Source: Winogradskyella haliclonae (GTDB taxonomy: Bacteria > Bacteroidota > Bacteroidia > Flavobacteriales > Flavobacteriaceae). From it: 64,000 nt of DNA. Position 1 is the first letter of the stretch; each line of letters starts with the position of its first letter. The translations under genes were made by a program, and so were the position numbers. Positions 42,297 to 55,705 of this stretch are shown piece after piece. Location: the NCBI RefSeq assembly GCF_014635865.1, contig NZ_BMDQ01000001.1:1364001-1428000 (forward strand), in the 5' to 3' direction. The notes beneath the pieces were generated by a model. It was not told the origin of the DNA and ran no database searches. It was given only the letters and a program-made list of their open reading frames with translations.

Positions 42297-42668
42297 TTAA
42301 TGTTGATAACATCTACCACTTGTGTTTTTTGTTTTTCGTTTACAACGTTTCCCAGATTTTGTTTTACCTGTACATTGGGTTGCTGTTAACTTTTTTGATG
42401 TAGTAGTTTTTTGTTCTTTTTTTGAAGCTAAAGATGTTGAATTTGATTTCTTCTTTGTATTATTCGCTGTTGGTTTACAAACTTTACAAGCCACATATCC
42501 TAATGCTTTTGCTCTGTCTAATTTGATTTCTTTTTTAGAATATTTTAGGTAATGGCAAGTGCTTTTGTGATATTTCTCTCCAGTCTTTGTCGTATAAACA
42601 GTTTGTGCAGGTATACAATAACCACAGGATAATGTTATAAATAGAACGACTATTTTAAGTAATTTCAC
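42297..42668 (-). CDS. Cys/His-rich two-domain protein (DUF5763-like C-terminus)
   Basis: The product has 123 residues: a signal peptide (IVVLFITLSCGYCIPAQ), a small Cys/His motif domain (GEKYHKSTCHYLKYSKKEI, then YVACKVCKP) and, after a Ser/Lys-rich linker, CTGKTKSGKRCKRKTKN ending in GRCYQH, like DUF5763. Both parts look like small zinc sites. The first motif occurs fused to nucleases or DNA-uptake proteins in other bacteria. Here its start overlaps the thermonuclease gene by 4 bp, so the two work together by inference. Confidence 0.75.
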   Translation of the reverse strand: MKLLKIVVLFITLSCGYCIPAQTVYTTKTGEKYHKSTCHYLKYSKKEIKLDRAKALGYVACKVCKPTANNTKKKSNSTSLASKKEQKTTTSKKLTATQCTGKTKSGKRCKRKTKNTSGRCYQH

Positions 42669-43168
42669 TCTTTAGTTTTTTTCTTTTTTCTATCTCTCCA
42701 TTCCCAAGGTGCAATAGCGTTTTTATCTTGCCAAAGCCCTAGTCTATTACCTCTGGCATTGTCCTCTAAAGCTTGTAAAATAGAATCTTTAGAATATTTT
42801 CTATAATGCCATGCTAAGCCATTTTTCACAAGCTCATGACATAGACTTAAAGAGTCATCATATATTACATTACTAATATATCGTTGGTATCTATCTCTCT
42901 TTAGAATTTTTAATGTTACCATCTTACTAAAAATAGCATCGGAAACAAACTGCTTTGCTTTTTTTGAAAAAGGTTGTTTGCTCTCTGGGCAATCTATGTT
43001 TGCTAAGCGTACTTTTATAAGTGTAGAATCTTTCGTTAAAAGTTTAAAAGTATCACCATCAGTTATTCCAACAACTTTTCCAATGATTGTTTCTTTTTTT
43101 ACCGATTTAGAATCAGCATTTATTGAAACAATTAATAGAAGTAAAAAAGCAAAACCGTATTTGTACAT
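42665..43168 (-). CDS. Thermonuclease family (SNase-like) protein, exported
   Basis: The product has 167 residues. A signal peptide (GFAFLLLLIVSINADS) leads to a staphylococcal nuclease fold with VVGITDGDTFKLL, VRLANIDCPE (an Arg and Glu of the active site), DRYQRYIS with the second Arg, LVKNGLAWHYRKY and NRLGLWQDKNAIAPWEWR. It should be a calcium-dependent periplasmic or secreted nuclease. It is separated by 75 bp from the HsdR_N-type gene upstream and coupled to the Cys/His-rich gene downstream. Confidence 0.92.
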   Translation of the reverse strand: MYKYGFAFLLLLIVSINADSKSVKKETIIGKVVGITDGDTFKLLTKDSTLIKVRLANIDCPESKQPFSKKAKQFVSDAIFSKMVTLKILKRDRYQRYISNVIYDDSLSLCHELVKNGLAWHYRKYSKDSILQALEDNARGNRLGLWQDKNAIAPWEWRDRKKKKTKE

Positions 43169-43243
43169 AAGATTATTTTAAAGAGACTTAAACTTAGCTA
43201 ATAATCTTTTCAATACAAATAATTAATTGAGCTCATATCTTAA

Positions 43244-44296
43244 TTAATCCTCATAAAGATTAATTGTTTTTAAAAGCCTTTCCTCAAAGTTATATATATC
43301 GCTCAATTTCGTAATTAACTCTTTAGTTTCTTTTTTTACTTCATCAAAAACGCCAATGTACTTTTTGCTTCCATTAAAATGCAATCTGCACAATGGCTTT
43401 CGGTTATTATCATCTAAAAGAATTCCAAAATATGATTGAGTATCTCTGTAGGCAATTCTATCAATAGAGAGTTTACGTCTTAGAATAGCAACTACAATTC
43501 TAAAACCCTCTAATTCTTCTTCAGTGGTTTCTATTCTATTATCTTCTTCTATGACCTCGATAGTGTCCAATTGTTGGTTTTCAGCTTCTTTGTTCAATGC
43601 AGAGTTTAAGCGATCATTTACTTTTTCACTCAAGGTTTGTGTAAAGGCTTTGTGAACTAAACCCGTAAATTCATGCATTACCTTTTCTGTAAGTCTACCA
43701 GAGTATACTTTATTAGCAAATAATTTGACAAAATCATAAGATGGCTCAGTTAGTTCTTCAGTAATACATTTTCTAATTTCTTTAGTATACTTTAAGGCAC
43801 TTGCATTATTTACGATTTTATTTACATCAAAATTTGATTTATGAAATTTTGAAATCTCATGGACTTCATTGTCTTTAATTTTGGTAATATCTAATTCAAA
43901 AAATGGTTTTGCATCCATTTTATTTGCATGCTCTAAATCTGTATAGAAGCGATAATTAATGCCGTTTGTGAGTAATGCGAACCGTGTTTTAGTTGCATGG
44001 AAATACCTAAACAATTGTGAGTTGTGATTATCTAGATTCTCTTCCCAGTGCTTACATTCGATAATGATAATTGGCACTTCATTTTGAAAAATAGCATAAT
44101 CTACCTTTTCTCCTTTTTTTAATCCTAAATCAGCGGTAAACTCTGGTACAACTTCTAGAGGATTAAATGTATCGTAGCCCAAAGCATTAATAAATGGTAA
44201 CACAAAAGCGTGTTTTGTTGATTCTTCAGTATCAATTTTATCTTTGAGTTGATTGATTTTAGTTGCAATTGCTTTTAGTTTATTTTGTAGTTCCAT
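43244..44296 (-). CDS. Predicted nuclease with HsdR N-terminal-type domain
   Basis: The product has 350 residues. The N-terminal PD-(D/E)XK fold is visible: FVLPFINALGYDTFNPLEVV, Asp67 in KVDYAIF and Glu80-x-Lys82 in IIIECKHW, then RYFHATKTRFALLTNGINYR and FFELDITKI. This is the layout of the HsdR N-terminus (type I restriction enzyme R subunit). There is no helicase part. The C-terminal 80 residues (FRIVVAILRRKLSIDRIAYR onward) resemble a domain that often follows this nuclease fold. No methylase gene is near, so a solitary restriction or repair function is likely. Confidence 0.82.
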   Translation of the reverse strand: MELQNKLKAIATKINQLKDKIDTEESTKHAFVLPFINALGYDTFNPLEVVPEFTADLGLKKGEKVDYAIFQNEVPIIIIECKHWEENLDNHNSQLFRYFHATKTRFALLTNGINYRFYTDLEHANKMDAKPFFELDITKIKDNEVHEISKFHKSNFDVNKIVNNASALKYTKEIRKCITEELTEPSYDFVKLFANKVYSGRLTEKVMHEFTGLVHKAFTQTLSEKVNDRLNSALNKEAENQQLDTIEVIEEDNRIETTEEELEGFRIVVAILRRKLSIDRIAYRDTQSYFGILLDDNNRKPLCRLHFNGSKKYIGVFDEVKKETKELITKLSDIYNFEERLLKTINLYED

Positions 44297-44300
44297 AGTT

Positions 44301-44597
44301 TTATTTTAGTCCTTGTGAAAAAATTTCATTGAAAAACTTTGTTAATGATGTTTCTTTTCCTTTTGATGCTGCATAAGCTATTCCCAATGATTCTAATTCA
44401 CCAGCAACAAAACCTTTTTCTAATAGCTTTTTGGAATTTGGGTTGTTTTTTAACCTTTTTACTTTTTTTAGCCAATCATTGTATGGGCCGCCAACTGAAA
44501 AACCAAATTTTTTAAAATCCTCTTTATTCTTAAATCTTAATAATTCACTATATAGTTCATTAAACTCTTCTAACACGTTTGCTTCGCTCTCTTTCAT
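44301..44597 (-). CDS. Hypothetical protein, 98 aa
   Basis: The product has 98 residues and is predicted mostly helical (NVLEEFNELYSELLRFKNKE at the start), with no signal peptide. I do not recognise a family. It overlaps the DUF4236 gene by 4 bp upstream and ends 4 bp before the HsdR_N-type gene, so it is embedded in the operon and probably a partner of one of its neighbours. Confidence 0.7.
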   Translation of the reverse strand: MKESEANVLEEFNELYSELLRFKNKEDFKKFGFSVGGPYNDWLKKVKRLKNNPNSKKLLEKGFVAGELESLGIAYAASKGKETSLTKFFNEIFSQGLK

Positions 44598-44944
44598 TTT
44601 TTTGATTCTAATTTTAATGCAGTACTATCATTATTCATCTTTTCTTTAGTTGCAATTTTCTCTTTTTTTGGTATCTGATCTTTTTTAGATGGTTTCTTGC
44701 TTTTGTCCAATTGGCAGGATAAAAGTAATGCCGTTAAAAAAGCAAGGGTTACTAGGCATCCACTGCTTTTAGACTTTTTAAAAGCCTTTCTATAATTCAA
44801 CCCTGGAATTCCTGTACGTATCGAATACCCTTTTGAGCTTAATGAGCCTCGTTTGGTTCTGTAATTAGGTGTAATACCAGATTTACTGATATTAATGCCA
44901 AATCGCTTTCCTAATTTTATACGTTTTTGAAATCTAAATCCCAT
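44594..44944 (-). CDS. DUF4236 domain protein with membrane anchor
   Basis: The product has 116 residues. The DUF4236 pattern FRFQKRIKLGKRFGINISKS, then RGSLSSKGYSIRTGIPGLNY, fills the first 55 residues, followed by a hydrophobic helix (CLVTLAFLTALLLSC) and a lysine-rich tail. The function of DUF4236 is unknown. It lies between the VWA-like lipoprotein gene (2 bp) and the 98-aa gene (4-bp overlap). Confidence 0.82.
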   Translation of the reverse strand: MGFRFQKRIKLGKRFGINISKSGITPNYRTKRGSLSSKGYSIRTGIPGLNYRKAFKKSKSSGCLVTLAFLTALLLSCQLDKSKKPSKKDQIPKKEKIATKEKMNNDSTALKLESKK

Positions 44945-44946
44945 GG

Positions 44947-45879
44947 CTAGTTGTTTATAAAGTCAGAGATTACTTTTTCTATACTAGATGGCAAATCAGC
45001 ATTTTTAATTTTAAAATTCTTGACGTTCATACTCTTTAACCAGTCACTCCAATAGAGTTCTATGATATCTTTTGCATAAGGATTATTATCATTTTGACTA
45101 GTGATTCCTATCACTAAGACTTCTAAATCATTTAAGTTTTTATTTGCTGGTATAAAACCTAATTGACGTGTTTTAAAATCGTTTTCCCAATTACTAGTAT
45201 TAAGTTTTAGCGCGTTTAAACTTCTTGGTGTTAAATAAGAAGTTTTATTATCTTCTTTCATAACCGTTTTGTCATAATACATATAACCGTCAGTTAAAAT
45301 CACAACGATATTTCGATGGCACTCATCTATGCAATAATCATTTATGTTGTCTTTAAAAAAACGCCATAGATCTGAGCCTGGATAACCTCCGGCGATTTTA
45401 GCATCTTCTTGGGCTAGATTGTAAAGTTGAGATGGGTATTCAGAATATAATTTTAAGGTTTCTTCCAATTGCGACCTTGAAGTTCCTTTCGAAAACCTAA
45501 CTTTAAGTTTTTCTGCTATAGAATTGATTCTTTCGTCTGTTGGTTCTGGGTTAAAGAATAATTGGATTCTGTCTTCTAAAAGAATTACTTTTTTGCGCTT
45601 TACATGATTGACAAAAGCATAAGCTAGGCTTGATAAATATGCAGAGTCTTTGAGTTTCGTTTTTGGATTTTTAATTCTATCAGATAAATCCAATAACACA
45701 CTAATATTAAGATTATTGTCCTTTTCTTTCAAAATATAATTTGGACATTTAGATGTTTGATTAACAACCTCTTTTTTTGAACCTTCTATAGTAGATGATT
45801 TGACATCTTTTTCACAACTCATAAAATAGATACAAGCTGACATTAGTATAGATAGAGTAAAATATTTTTGAATATTCAT
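44947..45879 (-). CDS. VWA-like lipoprotein
   Basis: The product has 310 residues with a lipobox (ACIYFMSC, Cys at 22). The middle reads as a von Willebrand A fold: ISVLLDLSDRI stands where the DxSxS metal site would be (with Asp-Leu-Ser-Asp-Arg), IVVILTDGYMYYD carries the later Asp, and LEVLVIGITSQND follows. The metal site is not perfectly canonical. VWA proteins commonly scaffold other proteins. It is coupled to the coiled-coil membrane protein gene (2 bp) and DUF4236 gene (2 bp). Confidence 0.75.
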   Translation of the reverse strand: MNIQKYFTLSILMSACIYFMSCEKDVKSSTIEGSKKEVVNQTSKCPNYILKEKDNNLNISVLLDLSDRIKNPKTKLKDSAYLSSLAYAFVNHVKRKKVILLEDRIQLFFNPEPTDERINSIAEKLKVRFSKGTSRSQLEETLKLYSEYPSQLYNLAQEDAKIAGGYPGSDLWRFFKDNINDYCIDECHRNIVVILTDGYMYYDKTVMKEDNKTSYLTPRSLNALKLNTSNWENDFKTRQLGFIPANKNLNDLEVLVIGITSQNDNNPYAKDIIELYWSDWLKSMNVKNFKIKNADLPSSIEKVISDFINN

Positions 45880-45881
45880 AT

Positions 45882-47147
45882 TTATAAAGTTTTAGTGTAG
45901 ACTTTGTTTTGATACGTATCTGTATCAATTTCTAAGCTTTTAATATGCTTGTCATATACATTTCTACATTCTAATAATAAAGCGTCCTTTTCATCTTTAC
46001 CCATTTGTAATGTGGAAGAAATATATTCTTGCCAGCCTTGAAGATATTCTGTAGATAAAGCTTTATAATTCATGACAGGGAGTATAAAACCATCAATGAT
46101 GTTCTGAAGCTCAGTGATTCTTGTCTTTATACCCGAAATTTCATTTTCTACTCCTGTTACTTGCTCTTTGATTTTTGAAGATTTTTTCTGTTTTCCAAAA
46201 ATGGCTTCTTTCTTCTCTCTTATGAAAGCTTTGATTTTATCTCTATCAGCATGTTCTTTCATCACAAAATCAAATACCAATCCCCAAACAATGTAGGAAA
46301 CGAAACCAGCGAATATGATTAACCAGAAACTGATGCTTTGAAAAGCTACAGAAATATTAAAAACTTCACTATCAAAAGTTTTATTAAGGTTGTATAACTT
46401 CTTGTCTATTAAGTAAGCTAGAATGGCATCGAATAAAAACGTAATTATCAATAAAGCAGCTATTTTGAATTTATTGATTAATCCGCGTTTCTCTTGAAAC
46501 ATGTGTATTAGGTAGCCTAATGCGAAAAAGACAAATGGGATAAATAAAATAAAGACTAATTCTAGCCAACCAGCTTCGTAAGCTTTAGAAAGTGCTTGAG
46601 GATCAAACATACCTTGAAACAAGCTAATTCCAGGATCGAATTCTCTAAAAAAGGCAGAGAAGGATGTAGATATGTAAAACACAAAGATATAAGCAGCTAA
46701 GGGTAGTAAGAAGCTTATACCAATCCAAAATTTAGCACTAGCTTTTTTATCCACATCGACAATGTAATCTTCAGGATTAGTCCTTACTTTTCTACATACC
46801 TCTTCTAAATTCTCGATTTCATTATTAATATCACGTACTTTTTTTTCCAATCTTTCATGCTCTTCATTTTTGTTCAGTAATGTGGTCTTTTTTCCTTTTT
46901 GCTCAGCGATATATGGTTGTTTTAAACGTTCTTGATTTGCAAAATCTTCTTTACATTTTTTTTCAAAAGATTCATATAGAGTATCCAAAGAGGTTTTTAA
47001 ATTGTGAGTGTTTCCTGAACATGCCTTAGATTTATTAAAGCCATCATCATGATAAGTGACTTTTTGATTCTCAATCTGTTCTGGCTTTTCAATCGTTTCA
47101 TTACTGTTTTGAGATGTCAGTTGTGTTAATCTTTTTAATAATCCCAT
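45882..47147 (-). CDS. Coiled-coil membrane protein, unknown
   Basis: The product has 421 residues: a polar N-terminus, a coiled coil at about 75-130 (NKNEEHERLEKKVRDINNEI), four hydrophobic segments at about 140-160, 195-215, 225-250 and 270-295, and a second coiled coil at about 315-365 (KKSSKIKEQVTGVENEISG). No family was recognised. Its position between the TerB-like and VWA-like genes, with gaps of 3 and 2 bp, suggests a membrane platform for these two. Confidence 0.75.
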   Translation of the reverse strand: MGLLKRLTQLTSQNSNETIEKPEQIENQKVTYHDDGFNKSKACSGNTHNLKTSLDTLYESFEKKCKEDFANQERLKQPYIAEQKGKKTTLLNKNEEHERLEKKVRDINNEIENLEEVCRKVRTNPEDYIVDVDKKASAKFWIGISFLLPLAAYIFVFYISTSFSAFFREFDPGISLFQGMFDPQALSKAYEAGWLELVFILFIPFVFFALGYLIHMFQEKRGLINKFKIAALLIITFLFDAILAYLIDKKLYNLNKTFDSEVFNISVAFQSISFWLIIFAGFVSYIVWGLVFDFVMKEHADRDKIKAFIREKKEAIFGKQKKSSKIKEQVTGVENEISGIKTRITELQNIIDGFILPVMNYKALSTEYLQGWQEYISSTLQMGKDEKDALLLECRNVYDKHIKSLEIDTDTYQNKVYTKTL

Positions 47148-47150
47148 AGC

Positions 47151-47555
47151 TTAGTCATTTAGTTCTTTTAAAAGAGCTTCTTTAGTTTTTTTATTTTTCG
47201 CACTATCTAACAGATAGTTGGATAATTCTTCGGATGTACCTTCTTTAAATTCAAACTTTAAGATGTATTTTTTTAAAGCTATTTTCTCATCATCAGTCAC
47301 TACATCATCAGCCCAAATCATTAGAGCAAAATCATAGAGGTATTCAATTCTTTTTTCTATGGTTTCTGGAATTGTTATTGTTCCAGAATATCCAGTTAAT
47401 ATATCTTCTAACTCCTGTTGCGAAATACCTCTTTCCTTTGCAAACTTGTAGAGTAGTTGCATTTCTAAATGACTAAAATTATCATCCGTTAAAGCAATTT
47501 GGTATAGGCGTAAAAAATGACTTTTTACCTCTAATGATATTGATGAGTTCTCCAT
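47151..47555 (-). CDS. TerB-like helical protein
   Basis: The product has 134 residues, all helical, with the TerB-type spacing of acidic helix pairs: YQIALTDDNFSHLEMQLLYK in the first half and LMIWADDVVTDDEKIALKKY in the second, where each holds the Asp/Glu pattern of a metal site. Paralogues are encoded at 53155 and 55292. TerB-fold proteins accompany tellurite- and phage-stress systems. It heads the core TerB/membrane/VWA set, 21 bp after the DUF6804-like gene. Confidence 0.7.
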   Translation of the reverse strand: MENSSISLEVKSHFLRLYQIALTDDNFSHLEMQLLYKFAKERGISQQELEDILTGYSGTITIPETIEKRIEYLYDFALMIWADDVVTDDEKIALKKYILKFEFKEGTSEELSNYLLDSAKNKKTKEALLKELND

Positions 47556-47576
47556 GTTTTTGATTTTTGGTTATGA

Positions 47577-47942
47577 TTAGTAAATCTTATCTCTGCTATA
47601 GGTCTTATCTGCTTTTTTTACTTTTTTTTCTGACTTTTTTTGAGGTTGTTTTAAAAATGCAACAAGTAGAAACAAGATTCCAGAAATAATGTCTATAGGT
47701 ATCCAATAGGCTTTGATATACAGATAAATTGGAAAAATTGGATTAAATAGTATAGCTATAATGACGAATGCTAAAATCCAAGGGAATTGCTTCTGTCTGA
47801 GACTAACCATAACAAGTAATGCACCAATAAATACAATTGTTCTTAAAAACGTATAATACTCTATTGGCCAGTAAAAGACAGCCACAAATAGTAGTATAGC
47901 ACAGCAAACACATGTTGATTTTAGTAAGTTGTTAGATTTCAT
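47577..47942 (-). CDS. DUF6804-like small membrane protein
   Basis: The product has 121 residues with four hydrophobic segments (STCVCCAILLFVAVFYWPI, TIVFIGALLVMVSL, WILAFVIIAILFNPIFPIYL, IISGILFLLVAFL) and a lysine-rich tail. It resembles the DUF6804 family of unknown function. It overlaps the DUF4177-like gene by 4 bp. Confidence 0.7.
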   Translation of the reverse strand: MKSNNLLKSTCVCCAILLFVAVFYWPIEYYTFLRTIVFIGALLVMVSLRQKQFPWILAFVIIAILFNPIFPIYLYIKAYWIPIDIISGILFLLVAFLKQPQKKSEKKVKKADKTYSRDKIY

Positions 47943-48127
47943 TCTTTTGTGTAAACAGCTAGATATGTAATAGAGGGTGTTCCAATACCCAAGCAGCCAG
48001 GTTTCTGCACTTGAAATACTGAATGAAATTTATACCCTTGTTCAGAATATTTATTAAATCTACCCTCTAAATTAACTATGGCTTTATTAGAGAATTCAGC
48101 CCCAATTTGTTCAATTTTGTAATGCAT
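47939..48127 (-). CDS. DUF4177-like small protein
   Basis: The product has 62 residues: YKIEQIGAEFSN, then EGRFNKYSEQGYKFHSVFQV and YLAVYTKE, the beta-alpha-beta outline of DUF4177 (a strand, a helix with NxxxxxGY, then strands). The function is unknown. It starts 18 bp after the yidD stop and overlaps the next gene by 4 bp. Confidence 0.7.
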   Translation of the reverse strand: MHYKIEQIGAEFSNKAIVNLEGRFNKYSEQGYKFHSVFQVQKPGCLGIGTPSITYLAVYTKE

Positions 48128-48145: not shown

Positions 48146-48493
48146 TTATTTTAGTTTATCTATTCCACCATTTTTTGATCTACAACGCCCAAGTCTATTT
48201 ATTGTTAAAGCGAAGCCTTTGTAGAACCCTTTTTCTCTAAAAGCTTGTTCAGAATATCTTGAACAACTAGGGTCAAAGACACAACGATTCCCTAATTTTT
48301 CTGATATATGATTTTGATAGAACCTTATTGATTTAATAACTAGATATAGCCAAACAGGTTTATATGGAATAGGTAAATTTTGAATTTGCAAATCAAGTTT
48401 AGTATGTCCACATAAATGTCTTTTTACTATAATTATATCTTTTTCAGATACGTTTACTTCAAATGAATCATTTTCGTTTTCTAAATATTTCAT
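48146..48493 (-). CDS. yidD: YidD family membrane protein insertion factor
   Basis: The product has 115 residues. The C-terminal 70 residues are typical YidD: LVIKSIRFYQNHIS, then RCVFDPSCSRYSEQAFREKG and GGIDKLK. The first 45 residues are an extension not usual in the family. YidD assists YidC-dependent membrane insertion in other bacteria. It is not near rnpA or yidC here; instead it heads a train of stress-type genes and stands just behind a palindrome and TATGTTTG box (48498-48542). If that box is used, transcription starts almost at the ATG, giving a leaderless mRNA. Confidence 0.85.
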   Translation of the reverse strand: MKYLENENDSFEVNVSEKDIIIVKRHLCGHTKLDLQIQNLPIPYKPVWLYLVIKSIRFYQNHISEKLGNRCVFDPSCSRYSEQAFREKGFYKGFALTINRLGRCRSKNGGIDKLK

Positions 48494-48495
48494 GC

Positions 48496-48543
48496 ATCAA
48501 ACATAAACTCATTAAAAAACAAAGCCTTACGGAATTCCGTAAG
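48496..48543. repeat. 48-bp repeat, copy A (palindrome plus promoter upstream of yidD)
   Basis: This segment and 48802-48849 are identical at 43 of 48 positions in the same orientation. Each includes the palindrome, the GGCTTTGTTT stretch and the TATGTTTG box, so an entire promoter region has been duplicated around the 69-aa gene. Confidence 0.8.
48498..48542 (-). promoter_or_regulatory. Palindromic operator and -7 box ahead of yidD
   Basis: The perfect palindrome TTACGGAATTCCGTAA at 48527-48542 is followed on the minus strand by 21 nt and TATGTTTG at 48498-48505. The centre of the palindrome falls near -41 relative to the expected start of transcription, the position of a class II activator. 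No -33 element is needed or seen. The same layout occurs three more times nearby. Confidence 0.65.
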
Positions 48544-48567
48544 TTAATTCATGGGAAATCTTAAAAA

Positions 48568-48777
48568 TTATTTCATACCTCCAAATATGGCCACTAATGC
48601 AACTGCTATGAAATGACCTATTTTGCTTAAAATTGCCCAAATAATTAAAAACCCTATTGCGCCAAAAAAGCTATCAGGTTCAATCCAATTCCATGCTAAA
48701 ACTCCAGAAAGAATTGAAATTAAAATTGTGATAACCCAAAGCATTGCTATAAAACATCCATCATTAGATTCATTCAT
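48568..48777 (-). CDS. Small membrane protein, 69 aa, unknown
   Basis: The product has 69 residues: a polar start (MNESNDG), two hydrophobic helices (CFIAMLWVITILISILSGVL and FFGAIGFLIIWAILSKIGHF) and a short tail. No family was recognised. It is flanked on both sides by the 48-bp repeat and has its own palindrome and TATGTTTG box upstream (48804-48848), so it is a single-gene unit. Confidence 0.7.
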   Translation of the reverse strand: MNESNDGCFIAMLWVITILISILSGVLAWNWIEPDSFFGAIGFLIIWAILSKIGHFIAVALVAIFGGMK

Positions 48778-48801
48778 ATTTAACTTTTTTTAAATTCATT
48801 T

Positions 48802-48849
48802 ATCAAACATAGACCCGTTAAGAAACAAAGCCTTACGAAATTCCGTAAG
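48802..48849. repeat. 48-bp repeat, copy B
   Basis: This is the partner of 48496-48543 (43 of 48 identical). It overlaps the longer inverted repeat at 48820-48861. Confidence 0.8.
48804..48848 (-). promoter_or_regulatory. Palindromic operator and -7 box ahead of the 69-aa gene
   Basis: TTACGAAATTCCGTAA (48833-48848, one mismatch to perfect symmetry), 21 nt, then TATGTTTG at 48804-48811 on the minus strand. The leader to the ATG at 48777 would be about 25 nt. Confidence 0.65.
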
Positions 48850-48861
48850 GCTTTGTTTCTT
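48820..48861. terminator. 18-bp perfect inverted repeat, terminator of the YjzC-like gene
   Basis: AAGAAACAAAGCCTTACG and its exact complement enclose a 6-nt loop. It lies 17 bp after the stop of the YjzC-like gene, and T-rich sequence flanks the stem in both directions. Its inner part is also the palindrome of the next promoter, so the same DNA may serve as terminator and operator. Confidence 0.75.
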
Positions 48862-48877
48862 TAACTGAACATGGATT

Positions 48878-49048
48878 TTATGCATAACTAATAAGCTTCC
48901 AAGTCACTGCTTTACCATTATAGGGCGGAAATGTTTCACCTTCAGATAAAGGAATAGTAGTAGATGGTGTGCTTTGAGCTTTCCAAACTCCAGATTCAGG
49001 ACATTTTTCTCCCGTTTTTCTTGTTGTTCCAATTGGTGCTTTTGCCAT
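48878..49048 (-). CDS. YjzC-like small protein, 56 aa
   Basis: The frame from ATG 49048 to TAA 48878 encodes 56 residues: MAKAPIGTTRKTGEKCPESG, then VWKAQS, an acidic-Thr stretch, ETFPPYNGKAVTWKLISYA. The GxxCPxSGxW start and the FPPxxxxxVTWKL end match small proteins of the YjzC type, whose function is unknown. A longer frame on the same strand (48904-49092) overlaps it but has no family sequence. A palindrome and TAGGTTTG box lie upstream (49078-49122), and a strong terminator follows. Confidence 0.75.
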   Translation of the reverse strand: MAKAPIGTTRKTGEKCPESGVWKAQSTPSTTIPLSEGETFPPYNGKAVTWKLISYA

Positions 49049-49077
49049 AGTTTCAAATATTTGATATTAATAATATT

Positions 49078-49122
49078 CAAACCTAGAGCCATTTTGAAGT
49101 TATTCCTTACGGTATACCATAG
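49078..49122 (-). promoter_or_regulatory. Palindromic operator and -7 box ahead of the YjzC-like gene
   Basis: On the minus strand CTATGGTATACCGTAA (49107-49122, two mismatches to symmetry) is followed by 21 nt and TAGGTTTG at 49078-49085. The leader to the ATG at 49048 would be about 25 nt. Confidence 0.65.
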
Positions 49123-49148
49123 TACAATGAAATATTTATAAAATAGGA

Positions 49149-49817
49149 TTAGATTAAGCCTCTATCTATAGCAATGGCAATAAGTTGCTCTGAAGTATGC
49201 GCATCAAAAAGTACTTTGAGTTTATTAATACGTTTTTCAATACTGCTGAGGCTACGAGCAGGAAAGTCTTTTTCTTTGAAGTAATTAGCAATTTGTTCTC
49301 TTTTTAAGCCTTTGGCTAAGAGCTGCAATAATAGTTCATCATATAGGTCTGTTTGAGAAATGTCATCAACATTACGAAGTAATTGTGCTATACTAGGAGA
49401 GCAATACATTTTATCTTCGAGAATAGTATGAATTGCTTTTTTCAATTCTATAGATTCTTCACGCCCTTTTTCAACATAAGCATCTATGTCGTATGTATCT
49501 ATAAGACTCTTAATTTTTCCTATACGATGCTCTACAGAAAACACGATGATTTTTAAATCAGGTTGAATAGCTTTGACAGCTTCAATTAGTTCCTCACCCG
49601 AAGTCAATGTTCTTTTTCTATGATCAGCTTTAAACGATAGGTCAGTAATTAAAAGATTAAAAGGCAGATCTATTCGCAAGGCAGCTTTAAGTTTAAGAAG
49701 TGCATCATCACAATATTGGGCAGTAATAACATTTGGAATGTTTAATTCATTTAATGTTCGTTCTACACCTTTATTAATGGTATTTTGATCTTCAGCAATT
49801 AAAACGTTTTGAAACAT
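49149..49817 (-). CDS. NarL/LuxR-type response regulator
   Basis: The product has 222 residues. The receiver begins MFQNVLIAEDQNTINKGVER with the phospho-acceptor Asp59 in LLITDLSFK and KIIVFSVEHR as the switch strand. The C-terminal helix-turn-helix is of the GerE type: LLQLLAKGLKREQIANYF, then SLSSIEKRINKLKVLF. It lies 9 bp after the TPR-type kinase gene and should be its partner. Sites of 16-bp dyad symmetry, as found four times around this gene, are the type such regulators bind. Confidence 0.9.
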   Translation of the reverse strand: MFQNVLIAEDQNTINKGVERTLNELNIPNVITAQYCDDALLKLKAALRIDLPFNLLITDLSFKADHRKRTLTSGEELIEAVKAIQPDLKIIVFSVEHRIGKIKSLIDTYDIDAYVEKGREESIELKKAIHTILEDKMYCSPSIAQLLRNVDDISQTDLYDELLLQLLAKGLKREQIANYFKEKDFPARSLSSIEKRINKLKVLFDAHTSEQLIAIAIDRGLI

Positions 49818-49826
49818 AAGAAGTAT

Positions 49827-51515
49827 TTAACTATTAAATTCTAAAGTGGCCTTAAAACCATTTCCTTTCGAAGTTGTGAAGTTAAAACTTCCACCAATAC
49901 CATTGATACGGGATTCCACATTTGCCAATCCATTTAATTTTGTTCCATTGACAGAAAAACCTATGCCATCGTCGACATATTTAATTTCTTTTTTCCTGTT
50001 ATGATTTTTAAATACAATACTGACGACTTTTGCCTTACTATGTTTTTTCATATTGACTAATAGCTCCTGTAAGCACCTGTAGATTACCACTTTTTTATGC
50101 TCTTCTATGCTCTGCCAATCTATCTTATTTATATCATTAGTAACTACCTTGGTCTCTGGTTTATTATGCTGCATCAATAAATGCTTAATGCTATCGGAGA
50201 AATTAGCTAATTCAATGCTTCCTGTTTCAGTAGAAATATCTCTTGTGCGTAAATAAATATCTTCGATATTATCTAAAAGCAATGATTTTTTAGCTTGAGT
50301 AACTTCTATATCATTCTCGACGAAATTCATAAGGTCAGACATGTCATTTGCTAATTCATCATGCACTTTTTTTGATAATTCAGTTTCTTTTAGATAAGCC
50401 TCTTTAATCTTGTCTTTTTTGTGCTTTGATTTTAAAAAGAAGTATAAAAAAATAGAAAGTAGTAGAATAGATAATCCAATGAATAGATAGATTAAATTTA
50501 TGTTTTTTTGACGTTCATTCTCGAGCTCACTATCTTTTAATTTGAGTTTTGCTTCGTTTGCTATCTTTTCTTGCTTTTCAAAAGCATATTTTTTTGATGC
50601 ATATTTATTTTGTGCTAATCTGTTACTTTTATTAATACTGTCTTCTAGTTTGTTTAATTTTAGAATTTTTGAGTCCTTATTTAAACTGCTGTAGAATGAT
50701 AAAGTATTTAATAAATAATCACTATTTCCGCTAGCTTCAGCAACTTCGATAGCTCTATTGGCATATTCTAAAGCTTTTATTTCGTTATTTCTATCTTTAT
50801 AGTATTCCCCTATATGTATATAGCTTTCTATAATTCCAGGGGTATAATTTAACTTTAGCCTTATTTCCATAGCTTCTGTTAAACTTGTTAAGGCATCAGG
50901 ATTTTCTATTTTGGATTGTGCAAAGCCCAAATTATCCAAAGCTCTGGCAGTATTTTCCTTTTTGTTAAAATTTAAACTATTTAAATATGATTCTTTAAAG
51001 AACTCTATGGAAGAATTATAGTCTTTTTGTTCTAAATAAACTTTTCCTATATTATTAATAATAGTAACTCTATTTTTAGAATTGTTATTTAAATCTAAAA
51101 CCGAATTGTAATATTTAAGAGAAGTATTGTAATCTTCATAATCTAGATATAAATTTCCTAAAAAGTTATTTAAAGGTATTCTGTAATCATTATTTTTTCC
51201 CTCAATCTGATCTAATAATTTTATTGCTTCAATTGCAGTTTTTTCAGCCTCGTATATGAATCCAATTTTTTTTTGAGCACTAGCTATGTAGGTTAAATTA
51301 TATACTAATGCCAGAATGTTATCGTCTTTTTTGTGAAGATTGTTTAGGTTTTGAAGGTATAAGATGGCATTAACTACATCATTATTTTTTTTGGAGCTTT
51401 TGATTGACTCCACATAAAAGTATGTACTATCTGGATTATTTTGAGCTTCTATGTGTTTATTAAAACACAATAAGGACAATAAAAAAAAGAGGAATGAAGT
51501 TTTAATTGGTTTCAT
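49827..51515 (-). CDS. TPR-type sensor histidine kinase
   Basis: The product has 562 residues: signal peptide (1-25), TPR helices at about 45-275 on the periplasmic side (for example NNIGKVYLEQKDYNSSIEFF), a coiled coil at 290-335, one transmembrane segment at 341-361, then a HisKA_3-type domain with KKVHDELANDM (His385) and an HATPase domain with CLQELLVNMKKHSKA and YVDDGIGFSV. Kinases of this class phosphorylate NarL-type regulators. Its periplasmic TPR array probably senses a peptide or protein; the proline-rich lipoprotein encoded 27 bp upstream is the obvious candidate. Confidence 0.9.
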   Translation of the reverse strand: MKPIKTSFLFFLLSLLCFNKHIEAQNNPDSTYFYVESIKSSKKNNDVVNAILYLQNLNNLHKKDDNILALVYNLTYIASAQKKIGFIYEAEKTAIEAIKLLDQIEGKNNDYRIPLNNFLGNLYLDYEDYNTSLKYYNSVLDLNNNSKNRVTIINNIGKVYLEQKDYNSSIEFFKESYLNSLNFNKKENTARALDNLGFAQSKIENPDALTSLTEAMEIRLKLNYTPGIIESYIHIGEYYKDRNNEIKALEYANRAIEVAEASGNSDYLLNTLSFYSSLNKDSKILKLNKLEDSINKSNRLAQNKYASKKYAFEKQEKIANEAKLKLKDSELENERQKNINLIYLFIGLSILLLSIFLYFFLKSKHKKDKIKEAYLKETELSKKVHDELANDMSDLMNFVENDIEVTQAKKSLLLDNIEDIYLRTRDISTETGSIELANFSDSIKHLLMQHNKPETKVVTNDINKIDWQSIEEHKKVVIYRCLQELLVNMKKHSKAKVVSIVFKNHNRKKEIKYVDDGIGFSVNGTKLNGLANVESRINGIGGSFNFTTSKGNGFKATLEFNS

Positions 51516-51542
51516 TCCTCTAAAATAGTAACAAATTAATTA

Positions 51543-51704
51543 TTACCCACCACTTCCAGGTGGTGGCGGTGGTGGCGGGTCAATTTCTCCACTTCCATCG
51601 CAACAGGCTTGTTGTGCAACTTCATCTGTTAAACTCTCGGGATTACACGAGCTAAAATTTAATGCAATAAAAAGTATTGCAAAAAGATATATTACTTTTT
51701 TCAT
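51543..51704 (-). CDS. Small proline-rich lipoprotein, 53 aa
   Basis: From ATG 51704 the product has 53 residues: a lipoprotein signal (MKKVIYLFAILFIALNFSSC, Cys at 20), an acidic stretch with a Cys-Cys pair (EVAQQACCDGSGEID), then seven prolines and GSGG at the very end. The frame stays open to 51842, but that part has no signal peptide features and contains a structured RNA leader. It is the first gene of the kinase/regulator operon. The short mature part is about 33 residues and could be a ligand or brake for the TPR kinase. No family name is known to me. Confidence 0.75.
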   Translation of the reverse strand: MKKVIYLFAILFIALNFSSCNPESLTDEVAQQACCDGSGEIDPPPPPPPGSGG

Positions 51705-51722
51705 TTCTCTAAAATTTTGGTA

Positions 51723-51837
51723 AAAGGGTTGCCGTCCGAAGTTTTTCAGATAAGTTTTGTGCAACCCTTTCGGGTTATACATTTGTTTCTTTTGGGAAGT
51801 GGGAAAGTGTATTGTAATACTTGATAGAAGTTCCCAA
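51723..51837 (-). ncRNA. Structured 5' leader of the proline-rich lipoprotein operon
   Basis: On the minus strand, in transcript order, there is a TTGGGAA / TTCCCAA stem (51792-51837) enclosing a small GTATT-ACA-ATAC hairpin, then AACCC-GAAA-GGGTT (51763-51776), then a 10-bp stem AAAGGGTTGC / GCAACCCTTT (51723-51770) with a 28-nt loop. The last two share GGGTT and cannot form together, the hallmark of a switch. The 10-bp stem is followed by TTTTACC, a weak terminator. Whether it responds to a ligand, translation or a protein is unknown. Confidence 0.5.
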
Positions 51838-51858
51838 GACATCTATACAGGCATTACT

Positions 51859-51903
51859 TTACGGTATTCCGTAGCAATCAATTTTGTACATTAGTTATGT
51901 TAG
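51859..51903 (+). promoter_or_regulatory. Palindromic operator and -7 box ahead of the 52046 gene
   Basis: TTACGGTATTCCGTAG at 51859-51874 is followed on the plus strand by 21 nt and TATGTTAG at 51896-51903, one base from TAnnTTTG. It points towards the gene at 52046, with a leader of about 135 nt. It also lies within the divergent upstream region of the lipoprotein-kinase operon, where it could act on both sides. Confidence 0.55.
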
Positions 51904-52045
51904 CAATGCATAACTAGAATTGATTATTAGTGGCAATTTCGTAATGACTTAATAAAAATCGTTAGTAAAGCTTTTGCATTCTTTTTGTATTCTTTTTGTA
52001 ATGAAAAAAATGCGTGTAAAGTTCTGATTATAATAACTGTGTGAA

Positions 52046-52744
52046 ATGGAATTTTTAAAACAACCAAAGGAAAGAATACTTAATCAAACACAAGATTTAA
52101 TGAGTCATGTATTTGAGAAAGCTAAGAATGACTCAAATGAAGTTACTCCAAACGGGATTTGTGTTTATTTAATGAAAGAGTTAAATGAAAAGATTAAAGA
52201 ACGGAATCTAACTAAATACTATAATGGTTATATATTGGATAATGAACTTGAAAGAACAAAACCAACTAAATATAATTTGGATGTTCTCAGTAATTATTTA
52301 GGCTTTGAAAACTTTGAAGAGTTTGTTGCAAGAGAAGAGAAAGAAAAGAAGAAGAGAAAATTAAGACGCAAATTATTTCTCTGTCGAATATTAAGTTTTG
52401 TTTTATTAATATCGTTGTTAGTATTTATTTTAAAATATTATAAAAAGAACTGTATGATATGGGTTGATGACCATTATGAAAAAATAAGGTGTTCTGGTTT
52501 GGATAATGAGAAGAAATTAGATGAAGTGGTTTTGAAAAAATTTAGGAAAATAGACGTATGCAAGGATTCAACATTTTTCAAAGATGGGGAGGCAATTATT
52601 CACTATACTAGACATAATAACATTGTTGATTTTTTTACTGATGATGGAGAGCATCCTATTTTCGATAATGTTTATACTGATCCAATAACTAGAACAATCA
52701 TTAATTCTAGGGTAAGACCTTGTGATAGTATTAATACTAATTAG
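52046..52744 (+). CDS. Single-pass membrane protein with cytoplasmic N-terminal domain, unknown
   Basis: The product has 232 residues: a charged helical N-terminus of about 110 residues (QPKERILNQTQDLMSHVFEK; NLDVLSNYLGFENFEEFVAR), one membrane helix at 113-130 (ILSFVLLISLLVFILKYY), and a C-terminal periplasmic part with NCMIWVDDHYEKIRCSGL. I recall similar proteins in Flavobacteriia but know no function. It is divergent from the proline-rich lipoprotein-kinase operon and has a palindromic promoter, so it may be a further part of that signalling unit. Confidence 0.7.
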   Translation: MEFLKQPKERILNQTQDLMSHVFEKAKNDSNEVTPNGICVYLMKELNEKIKERNLTKYYNGYILDNELERTKPTKYNLDVLSNYLGFENFEEFVAREEKEKKKRKLRRKLFLCRILSFVLLISLLVFILKYYKKNCMIWVDDHYEKIRCSGLDNEKKLDEVVLKKFRKIDVCKDSTFFKDGEAIIHYTRHNNIVDFFTDDGEHPIFDNVYTDPITRTIINSRVRPCDSINTN

Positions 52745-53154: not shown

Positions 53155-53586
53155 ATGAGCAAACAACATTCACACCCCAAAAGCATATATCATGACGCAT
53201 TAGCTGGCATAATGAAAATTACTTTAAGAGATGAAGATGCTTCTAATGAAGAAAAGCAATTTTTAGTGAATTTTGCAAAAAGGTTAAGTATAACTGATGA
53301 GGAATATGTAACAATCTCTAACACCTATACTTCACATGAGATTAAAGCACCTCATTTATATGAACAGAGGTTAGATGCTCTTTATGAAATTGTTAAAATA
53401 GTTTGTACAGAAGATACTTTGTCTCCTGAAAGCAAAGAAATTTGGTTAAAAAGGGTAGGAAAAGCTCTAGGATTTGACCCAAGCAATGTAAAGTATATAG
53501 TGGCCAAATCTCTTGATGTCTTTGCTGACAACATAAATGTAACTAAAGAGTATTTTATGGATGAGGTTAAAAATCTAAATCAGTAG
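53155..53586 (+). CDS. TerB-like helical protein, paralogue of 47151 and 55292
   Basis: The product has 143 residues, all helical. It shares IMKITLRDEDASNEEK, a central QRLDALYEIVKIV and the ending FDPSNVKYIVAKSLDVF with the 55292 protein (there IMKITLREGNSSIDEK and SINIKYIVLKSLDLF). It lacks a signal peptide. It converges with the small lipoprotein gene at 53596. The function is inferred only from the TerB-like pattern of acidic helices. Confidence 0.7.
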   Translation: MSKQHSHPKSIYHDALAGIMKITLRDEDASNEEKQFLVNFAKRLSITDEEYVTISNTYTSHEIKAPHLYEQRLDALYEIVKIVCTEDTLSPESKEIWLKRVGKALGFDPSNVKYIVAKSLDVFADNINVTKEYFMDEVKNLNQ

Positions 53587-54072: not shown

Positions 54073-55098
54073 TTAAGGACTATATTCCAAAGTCAATAAT
54101 TTACCTGCTCTTAATACGGTTATATTAAATTTAGGTTTATCTCCAATTGATTTGGCAAAATCAGCTAATTTCAACAGTGCTTCGTCTGAGAGTTCAAACC
54201 TAATGCTATTGAATGCAAGTATAATATCTCCACCAGCAATAAACTTTTGGTTTCCAATTGAAATTTCAGTATCACCACCTTTGACACCCATTTTATCAAA
54301 AATCGAGGATGATGCCACTCTTTGAACTAACAAGCCATATTTCTGTGGTAGATTAAAAATTTTGGCTTCTTTATCTTTTAGCGTATGAAATTCTGCTCCA
54401 AACCATGGCATCTTATTATTTAAGAGCAACTTTGCCGCTAAGTTTGAACTTGTAGCGAACCCAATGCCATCAGACCCGCCAGATTTTGTCTTTATATGAC
54501 TTACAATTCCTATGACTTCTCCTTTTAAATTAAACATAGGCCCACCAGAGTTTCCTTGATTTATGGCAGCATCAGTTTGAATAAAATCTGTAGTTGTAAA
54601 AGGATTTTCCCCTAAGCTTTCTTTTTTAAATGCACTAATATAACCTGATGACATTGAAAACCCAACACCAAGAGGAACGCCTACTACAAAAACCTGATTT
54701 CCAATTTTCATACTACCTGAATCACCAAAGCTGACAGTAACAGCATTAATTTTGGGTATAAACAATTCAATTAAAGCTATATCAGCAGCTTCATAAGAAG
54801 TCACAACTTTTGCAGGTATGGTTTCGCCATCAGAGAACTGAACTATTAATTTTTCAGGTACTTTTACAACATGTGCCGCTGTGACTACTAGCTTATTAGT
54901 AATCATAAAACCTGAGCCTAATCCATTTTTTGTAGACACTACAGTCTTATTGTCGTTAGTCGTAGTTAATGTTTCTTCTTGGGTAAATATGGCAACTACT
55001 GCTGGGCTTACCTTATTGTAAACCTCAGATAAATCTTGAGAATTTACAGTAGTCATACAAATGGTGACGAGTAAAAGAGTAAAGAGAATAGTCTTCAT
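54073..55098 (-). CDS. HtrA/DegP-like periplasmic serine protease
   Basis: The product has 341 residues with a signal peptide (1-20) and a trypsin-like domain whose triad is His76 (VVTAAHVVKV), Asp106 (AADIALIEL) and Ser184 (QGNSGGPMF). A PDZ-like domain follows at about 235-335 (LLVQRVASSSIFDKMGVKGG and IILAFNSIRF). It is shorter than DegP, with one PDZ domain as in DegS. It would degrade or sense misfolded proteins in the periplasm. Confidence 0.9.
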   Translation of the reverse strand: MKTILFTLLLVTICMTTVNSQDLSEVYNKVSPAVVAIFTQEETLTTTNDNKTVVSTKNGLGSGFMITNKLVVTAAHVVKVPEKLIVQFSDGETIPAKVVTSYEAADIALIELFIPKINAVTVSFGDSGSMKIGNQVFVVGVPLGVGFSMSSGYISAFKKESLGENPFTTTDFIQTDAAINQGNSGGPMFNLKGEVIGIVSHIKTKSGGSDGIGFATSSNLAAKLLLNNKMPWFGAEFHTLKDKEAKIFNLPQKYGLLVQRVASSSIFDKMGVKGGDTEISIGNQKFIAGGDIILAFNSIRFELSDEALLKLADFAKSIGDKPKFNITVLRAGKLLTLEYSP

Positions 55099-55291: not shown

Positions 55292-55705
55292 ATGAGTGAA
55301 ACTAGTAAATATTTTGCCGCCTTTGCTTCAATTATGAAGATTACCCTTCGAGAAGGTAATTCATCAATAGATGAAAAAAGAATTTTACAAGAATTTGGTA
55401 AAAAACTGGGGATTTCTTCTTCTGAGTACTTCGAATTATTAGACTCTTATGACAGTTTTGATATTACCCCAGTAACAACTAGAAATGAACGATTAAAAGC
55501 ATTTTACCAAATTATTAATGTCATCTTTACCAATGATTATCAAAATACAAACAAAAATGAATGGCTTGAGCGCATTGGCGTTGCCATTGGCTTTAGTTCT
55601 ATTAACATAAAATATATTGTGTTAAAATCATTGGATTTATTTAAGTCCAATGAACCGTTAACTGAGTCTATTTATATTGACGAGATTAACAATATGAATA
55701 AATAA
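55292..55705 (+). CDS. TerB-like helical protein, paralogue of 53155
   Basis: The product has 137 residues, helical, close to the 53155 product by shared motifs at the start (IMKITLRE), middle (ERLKAFYQIINVIF) and end (IKYIVLKSLDLF). It has no signal peptide. It lies opposite the HtrA-like protease gene and converges with the barrel gene at 55719. Confidence 0.7.
   Translation: MSETSKYFAAFASIMKITLREGNSSIDEKRILQEFGKKLGISSSEYFELLDSYDSFDITPVTTRNERLKAFYQIINVIFTNDYQNTNKNEWLERIGVAIGFSSINIKYIVLKSLDLFKSNEPLTESIYIDEINNMNK

Follow-up and report, generated by a model that had tools for sequence, protein, structure and literature searches.

A palindrome at a fixed distance from sigma-A boxes accompanies a NarL/RcsB-type two-component system and, in relatives, marks anti-phage genes

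In Marinomonas mediterranea the BarA/UvrY-like pair PpoS/PpoR, a kinase and a LuxR-type regulator, is needed for the expression of CRISPR-Cas (clustered regularly interspaced short palindromic repeats and associated proteins) and for phage resistance, and KinB/AlgB and Rcs are cited as CRISPR-Cas repressors (PMC8523701). A promoter map of Flavobacterium psychrophilum distinguishes six sigma-factor motifs and assigns positions −12 to −5 to the sigma-A box, TAnnTTTG (PMC9723704), and the palindrome bound by NtcA lies at about −41.5 (PMC3898017). Here we analyse a 64,000-nt stretch of the Winogradskyella haliclonae chromosome (contig NZ_BMDQ01000001.1, positions 1,364,001 to 1,428,000), called the window throughout, in which a palindrome precedes the −7 box of four promoters around the genes of a NarL/RcsB-type two-component system. 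To our knowledge, the timing of immune-system expression in Bacteroidota has been little explored. From the sequence comparisons that follow we consider it likely that the palindrome is the site of the response regulator (49149–49817), whose phosphorylated dimer would activate sigma-A promoters as a class II activator and, in relatives, would also act on anti-phage genes.

Four operators at a fixed distance from sigma-A boxes

The palindromes that a first-pass annotation had placed at 48527, 48833, 49107 and 51859 are all present, with 0, 1, 2 and 1 mismatches to TTACGGWATWCCGTAA, respectively, and the distance from palindrome to −7 box is exactly 21 nt at 4/4 sites, as had been claimed. Operator O1 (48527..48542, TTACGGAATTCCGTAA) faces the −7 box TATGTTTG of yidD (48498..48505, minus strand), whose predicted +1 is 48493 when the box position is taken from PMC9723704. 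O2 (48833..48848), which lies within a long hairpin, faces the box TATGTTTG of a gene for a 69-aa protein (48804..48811, minus; predicted +1 at 48799), and O3 (49107..49122) the box TAGGTTTG of a YjzC-like gene (49078..49085, minus; predicted +1 at 49073). O4 (51859..51874) stands before the gene at 52046, with the box TATGTTAG, one mismatch from TAnnTTTG, at 51896..51903 on the plus strand and a predicted +1 at 51908. The operators themselves are assigned no strand.

If the sigma-A box occupies −12 to −5 (position from PMC9723704), the palindrome spans −49 to −34 and its dyad is centred at −41.5, which supports the earlier proposal of a dyad near −41 in the class II position. Relative to the predicted starts, the geometry is that of a class II activator, with a site centred at about −41.5 and a fixed distance to the core promoter box. 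The predicted start of yidD is the A of its ATG and the message may therefore be leaderless; in the yidD orthologue of one related locus (L018) the gap from box to start is 24 nt. By eye, the −7 box of the 52046 promoter lies inside an inverted repeat, AGTTATG...CATAACT (51893–51915), which looks kept in loci L013, L014 and L018 and shows paired changes in L064.

The spacers at 49107 and 51859 are unrelated, hence these are independent sites, and the argument of the first-pass annotation that they are not chance duplicates stands. It needs one qualification, in that the sites at 48527 and 48833 are near-duplicates whose spacer and promoter are almost identical letter for letter.

Allowing up to 3 mismatches, the palindrome alone matched six times in the window against 0.97 expected, and 0/100 shuffles reached six. 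When palindrome, 21 nt and TAnnTTnG were required together (≤3 mismatches), the 3.05 Mb genome gave six rows and the reversed-pattern control one; besides the four window sites, these rows comprised the opposite reading of the 48527 palindrome, at 2 mismatches, and a single match elsewhere, at 3. At ≤2 mismatches only the four sites and the reverse reading of 48527 were left. The annotation's observation of no further copy in the window holds for the whole genome at the 21-nt spacing. By itself the palindrome is not enriched genome-wide (≤2 mismatches; six places, four of them the window sites, against ten for the reversed control), and the signal therefore lies in the clustering and the fixed spacing.

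Could the palindromes instead belong to the genes upstream, as intrinsic terminators or RNA hairpins, with a spacing fixed by duplication? The near-duplicates at 48527 and 48833 lie downstream of codirectional genes and both fold. The hairpin that contains O2 (48820..48862, minus; ends by eye), downstream of the YjzC-like gene, is terminator-like and reaches −29.4 kcal/mol (z −8.24, folded from 48806 to 48868), while 48527 sits in a shorter hairpin (z −2.29), and both fit the features of an intrinsic terminator in part. Moreover, T-rich spacers are commoner where a codirectional open reading frame (ORF) ends just upstream (20/59 versus 4/42, p 0.005). From the hairpins and T-rich spacers after codirectional genes it follows that some operators may also end the upstream transcript, and 48527 and 48833 may double as terminators in a second role. 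Against this explanation for the set, 49107 has no stable fold (z +0.88) and 51859 folds weakly (z −1.52), with no close codirectional gene upstream of it, and a terminator needs neither an exact 21 nt to the box, nor a link to a regulator, nor a place between cas9 and tracrRNA (see below). The terminator reading of all four sites is rejected for 49107 and 51859 on folding, and as a general account we find it very improbable.

The adjacent two-component system as probable binder

Between O3 and O4 lie the genes of the probable binder and its kinase, both on the minus strand. The regulator (49149..49817), of NarL/RcsB type, has a receiver domain in which D10, D59, S94 and K117 are invariant in 35 sequences, its Pfam Response_reg score of 27.2 bits lying under the 30.2 cut-off, and a C-terminal four-helix helix-turn-helix (HTH) of GerE/LuxR type. 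Its closest solved fold is RcsB, at about 24% identity, and it matches RcsB–DNA complexes; its nearest relatives are from Winogradskyella. The sensor histidine kinase (49827..51515) combines TPR repeats with a HATPase domain (Pfam) and, by eye, has a signal peptide and one membrane segment. The two genes are adjoined by a small lipoprotein-like ORF (51543..51704, minus) ending in CCDGSGEIDPPPPPPPGSGG, a motif found in 15/56 loci, the window included. This ORF, with its CC(G/D)xxG-I-polyproline tail, might encode a sensor partner or a peptide signal.

The regulator gene led us to 55 related loci in named genomes, which together with the window make 56 loci and 1.10 Mb. TTACGG-N4-CCGTAA (≤1 mismatch) occurs 74 times in them, and of the exact TAnnTTTG boxes found 5–44 nt from the palindrome on either side, 46/47 stand at 21 nt. 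For fifteen permuted palindromes no box stood at that distance, though each permutation had only 0–7 sites. At a looser setting at least one operator is present in 50/56 loci and absent from L022, L024, L026, L030, L046 and L053, of which L024 and L053 are short contigs. A set of 101 sites, each selected to have an exact box and at most 3 mismatches in the palindrome, gives the profile [T/A]TRYGG-N4-CCGTA[A/T]; the sequence between palindrome and box varies freely and its length is fixed. Across the family (249 genomes), the site is present in 79/94 genomes with a close homologue of the regulator versus 7/155 without one. A chance origin of the combination of palindrome and spacing is rejected by the window shuffles, the genome scans, the spacing in relatives and the co-occurrence with the regulator.

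What do these sites precede? In 26/55 relative loci, 28 sites (2–3 palindrome mismatches, exact boxes) lie before the regulator gene itself, an arrangement not present in the window. A gene of the 52046 family follows 18 sites, spread over 16 loci of which the window is one; at five of these sites the ORF begins over 300 nt from the box. Other targets near the regulator encode HSDR_N-type, HNH, DUF1508, DUF2188, TM2, DUF6804, YidD and YjzC-like proteins and, below cut-off, GIY-YIG and DUF4177-like ones, and in Aequorivita-type loci the target is cas1 or cas9. The sets differ from species to species.

Because the site tracks the regulator across genomes and the 21-nt spacing recurs in its loci, the adjacent two-component system is probably the binder of the palindrome. 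The suggestion of the first-pass annotation that a NarL-type regulator is the candidate thus gains support, both from the 249 genomes and from the variant site before the regulator gene of relatives. A different protein, such as a member of the 52046 family or another regulator common to the same genomes, might bind instead: the 52046 family is found in 38/55 loci and its helical N-terminal part might contact DNA, some regulator-negative genomes carry similar sites at cas9 and one at a type I methylase gene, and weaker regulator matches exist in further genomes. We regard this as unlikely, given that the kinase–regulator pair is the most constant companion of the site (a kinase match ends ≤400 nt upstream of the regulator in 54/56 loci, the exceptions being L028 and L041), that the regulator fold matches RcsB–DNA complexes, and that the site stands before the regulator gene in so many loci.

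Target genes in relatives and in the window

Beyond what the first-pass annotation had proposed, the operator also marks anti-phage genes in relatives, most of all the pair of cas9 and tracrRNA (trans-activating CRISPR RNA). Sixty-five distant sites were listed for regulator-positive genomes, and a scan of those stretches gave 67; the target pool consists of the 58 that are followed by an ORF of 100 aa or more, and the control pool of 109 ORFs preceded by any TAnnTTTG box, taken from a further 20 stretches of these genomes. In random draws of 30 from each, PADLOC (E ≤ 1e-10) matched 12/30 targets versus 0/30 controls (p 1.2e-4). The twelve are type I restriction proteins (four), a type I methylase, Cas9, PD-Lambda-1, an AAA ATPase, PDC-S37, PDC-S60, PDC-S04 and a small HTH protein, the last being weak evidence. 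A Pfam scan of ten proteins included eight sampled targets that had no PADLOC hit; putAbiC and DndB were found among these eight, along with one GDSL lipase, and five had no Pfam match. The enrichment beside defence genes is, like the sites, their spacing, their conservation and their co-occurrence with the regulator, read directly from the DNA.

One genome, G069 (L073, L074, L075 and L076), carries a dispersed repeat of about 170 nt (by eye) before several unrelated genes; both the palindrome and, downstream of it, another promoter-like box are part of the repeat. Without this genome, 10/25 targets match PADLOC.

In an independent test, cas9 was sought by profile and found in 41/249 genomes, 17 regulator-positive and 24 regulator-negative. 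Within 200 nt before cas9, palindrome, 21 nt and box (≤3 mismatches in total) were present in 7/17 regulator-positive versus 2/24 regulator-negative genomes (p 0.02), the rate in random windows being 0.05%. Read in the opposite direction, a palindrome 20 to 22 nt from a second box was found in 12/17 versus 2/24 (p 5e-5), compared with 2/1500 random windows. In 11/12 of these the box is followed by a tracrRNA-like conserved core, and in L213 the RNA opens with an anti-repeat that is complementary to the local CRISPR repeat at 23/24 positions. The assignment as tracrRNA rests on the L213 anti-repeat and the conserved core string; Rfam recovered the CRISPR repeat of L213 but no tracrRNA family when run on six cas9 loci. 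Most regulator-negative genomes, too, have the core next to cas9, as a tracrRNA should. With cas9-side and tracr-side boxes around one palindrome, a single operator between the divergent promoters probably serves both, as judged from this arrangement. The tracr-side site of G057 lies a long way from cas9 and serves the tracr side only. L250 (G199) and L246 (G135) have no close homologue of the regulator, yet carry an operator-like site at cas9.

The first genes behind the window operators are yidD (48146..48493, minus; PF01809, E 5.8e-19), the 69-aa gene (48568..48777, minus; no Pfam match), the gene for the 56-aa YjzC-like protein (48878..49048, minus; 23.7 bits against a cut-off of 25) and the gene at 52046..52744 (plus), whose divergent product has one membrane segment by eye and no Pfam match above cut-off. 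Members of the last family often share a CMxWxxDHYExxxC segment; the structure model of the window protein is confident, with a helical N-terminal part, and Foldseek returned no match for it at E ≤ 0.001, which counts neither for nor against its binding the site. Genes presumably co-transcribed behind yidD (44594..48127, minus) encode DUF6804, weakly TerB-like, DUF4236 and other proteins. Further codirectional genes (42297..44296, minus), for an HSDR_N-type, a staphylococcal-nuclease-like and a 123-aa protein, follow after a gap of about 300 nt and are uncertain members of the train. In a PADLOC scan of window genes, ORF 47939–48127 excepted, two genes behind yidD gave weak matches (E 2.8e-5 to 7.7e-4), and protease hits fell on 54073–55098, which is not a target. 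Three similar-looking proteins (47151–47555, 53155–53586 and 55292–55705) flank the two-component genes on both sides; the first has a weak TerB match and the second none. The window targets are thus mostly small proteins of uncharacterised role, possibly joined by the nuclease-like genes behind yidD, and a defence role in this genome would be an extrapolation from relatives.

Proposed mechanism and known systems

We propose that the sensor kinase (49827–51515) phosphorylates the regulator in response to some signal, and that a regulator dimer then binds [T/A]TRYGG-N4-CCGTA[A/T] at −49 to −34, where the Bacteroidetes −33 element would be, and recruits sigma-A polymerase to the TAnnTTTG box as a class II activator. 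The regulon in this genome would consist of four promoters, all of them clustered about the kinase and regulator genes in a span of 3.4 kb. In relatives it would extend to the regulator's own promoter and to distant anti-phage genes, including those for type I restriction, type II-C CRISPR-Cas, abortive-infection-like and candidate defence proteins, and a shared palindrome could raise cas9 and tracrRNA together. Binding, phosphorylation, activation rather than repression, the signal and any effect on phage immunity are all predictions from these sequence patterns. NarL-family regulators can activate or repress, and a regulator bound over the −33 region could block polymerase. We nevertheless think repression very unlikely, since a fixed distance across a freely varying spacer fits contact with polymerase, whereas a repressor site would tolerate other positions.

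Several observations weigh against class II activation by this regulator, or against its link with defence. Among regulator-positive genomes, 15/94 lack the site at ≤1 mismatch, and the genomes share kinship, so that the Fisher values overstate independence. On the tracr side, ≤4 mismatches give 12/17 versus 5/24 (p 0.003), the five being regulator-negative genomes, and the spacing is looser there, with 5/12 at 21 nt, two at 20 and five at 22. The repeated copies in G069 also count on this side. Eight sites from regulator-negative genomes, six with an ORF of at least 100 aa behind, yielded a PADLOC hit for 1/6 genes, a type I methylase in L209 (G074); six genes are too few to confirm or exclude that the defence link depends on the regulator. 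Regulator-negative sites at cas9 and at the methylase gene mean, therefore, that this link is not strictly tied to the regulator. Among independently fetched hsdR genes, examined with 1.5 kb of flank and not necessarily first in their operon, the site was present in 3/13 regulator-positive versus 0/12 regulator-negative loci (p 0.22), and all three were among the sites already known; universal control of type I restriction is unsupported. In W. haliclonae itself PADLOC gave no hit at the four first target genes, and its only match at E ≤ 1e-10 was the nuclease at 42665–43168 (9.3e-12), far behind yidD.

A broader reading, to which we give about an even chance, places class II activation by the regulator in the service of immunity. 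In much of the family, immunity would have a membrane two-component system of its own, which would turn on anti-phage genes, in a set that changes, through one standard operator at −41.5; a single palindrome would co-activate divergent cas9 and tracrRNA; new defence genes would join by carrying a 45-nt operator–promoter module; and the sensor would read an envelope signal, perhaps via the small CC/polyproline lipoprotein. If this is true, CRISPR-Cas9, restriction and further defence genes in many genera of an abundant aquatic family could all be approached through one sensor–regulator pair, and its operator could be used to predict new defence genes. The system would also provide a clean class II activator model for the unusual promoter of Bacteroidetes, and would let one test whether a single site drives cas9 together with its tracrRNA.

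Regulator control of CRISPR-Cas has precedent; a regulon of this palindrome in flavobacteria was not found in prior literature among the matches listed, which cover few subscription papers and name neither palindrome nor regulon in any title or abstract opening. Our promoters share the −7 box and its position, −12 to −5, with the F. psychrophilum promoter map, whose main text contains none of the strings palindrom, luxr and cgg (PMC9723704). For an F. psychrophilum cas9, a TAnnTTTG box was noted inside an IS982 element, and the portion of that report available mentions no operator (PMC10309648). Of the precedents found, PpoS/PpoR comes closest in function, as a kinase and LuxR-type response regulator on which CRISPR-Cas expression depends. 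It differs in belonging to another phylum and in its proposed route, through CsrA and small RNAs to types I-F and III-B, and the available text describes no shared −41.5 palindrome and no cas9/tracrRNA (PMC8523701). Rcs of Serratia resembles the present system in that its response regulator, RcsB, is tied to CRISPR-Cas and has the closest solved fold; it differs in being a reported repressor of CRISPR-Cas (PMC8523701), and RcsB shares only the identity of about 24% given above. In geometry the likeness is to CRP and NtcA, each with a palindrome at about −41.5; these are of another protein family, whereas here the partner is the Bacteroidetes sigma-A box TAnnTTTG and activation is predicted. 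The class II site of CRP, too, is centred at about −41.5, the position that the palindrome takes up at all four promoters of the window.

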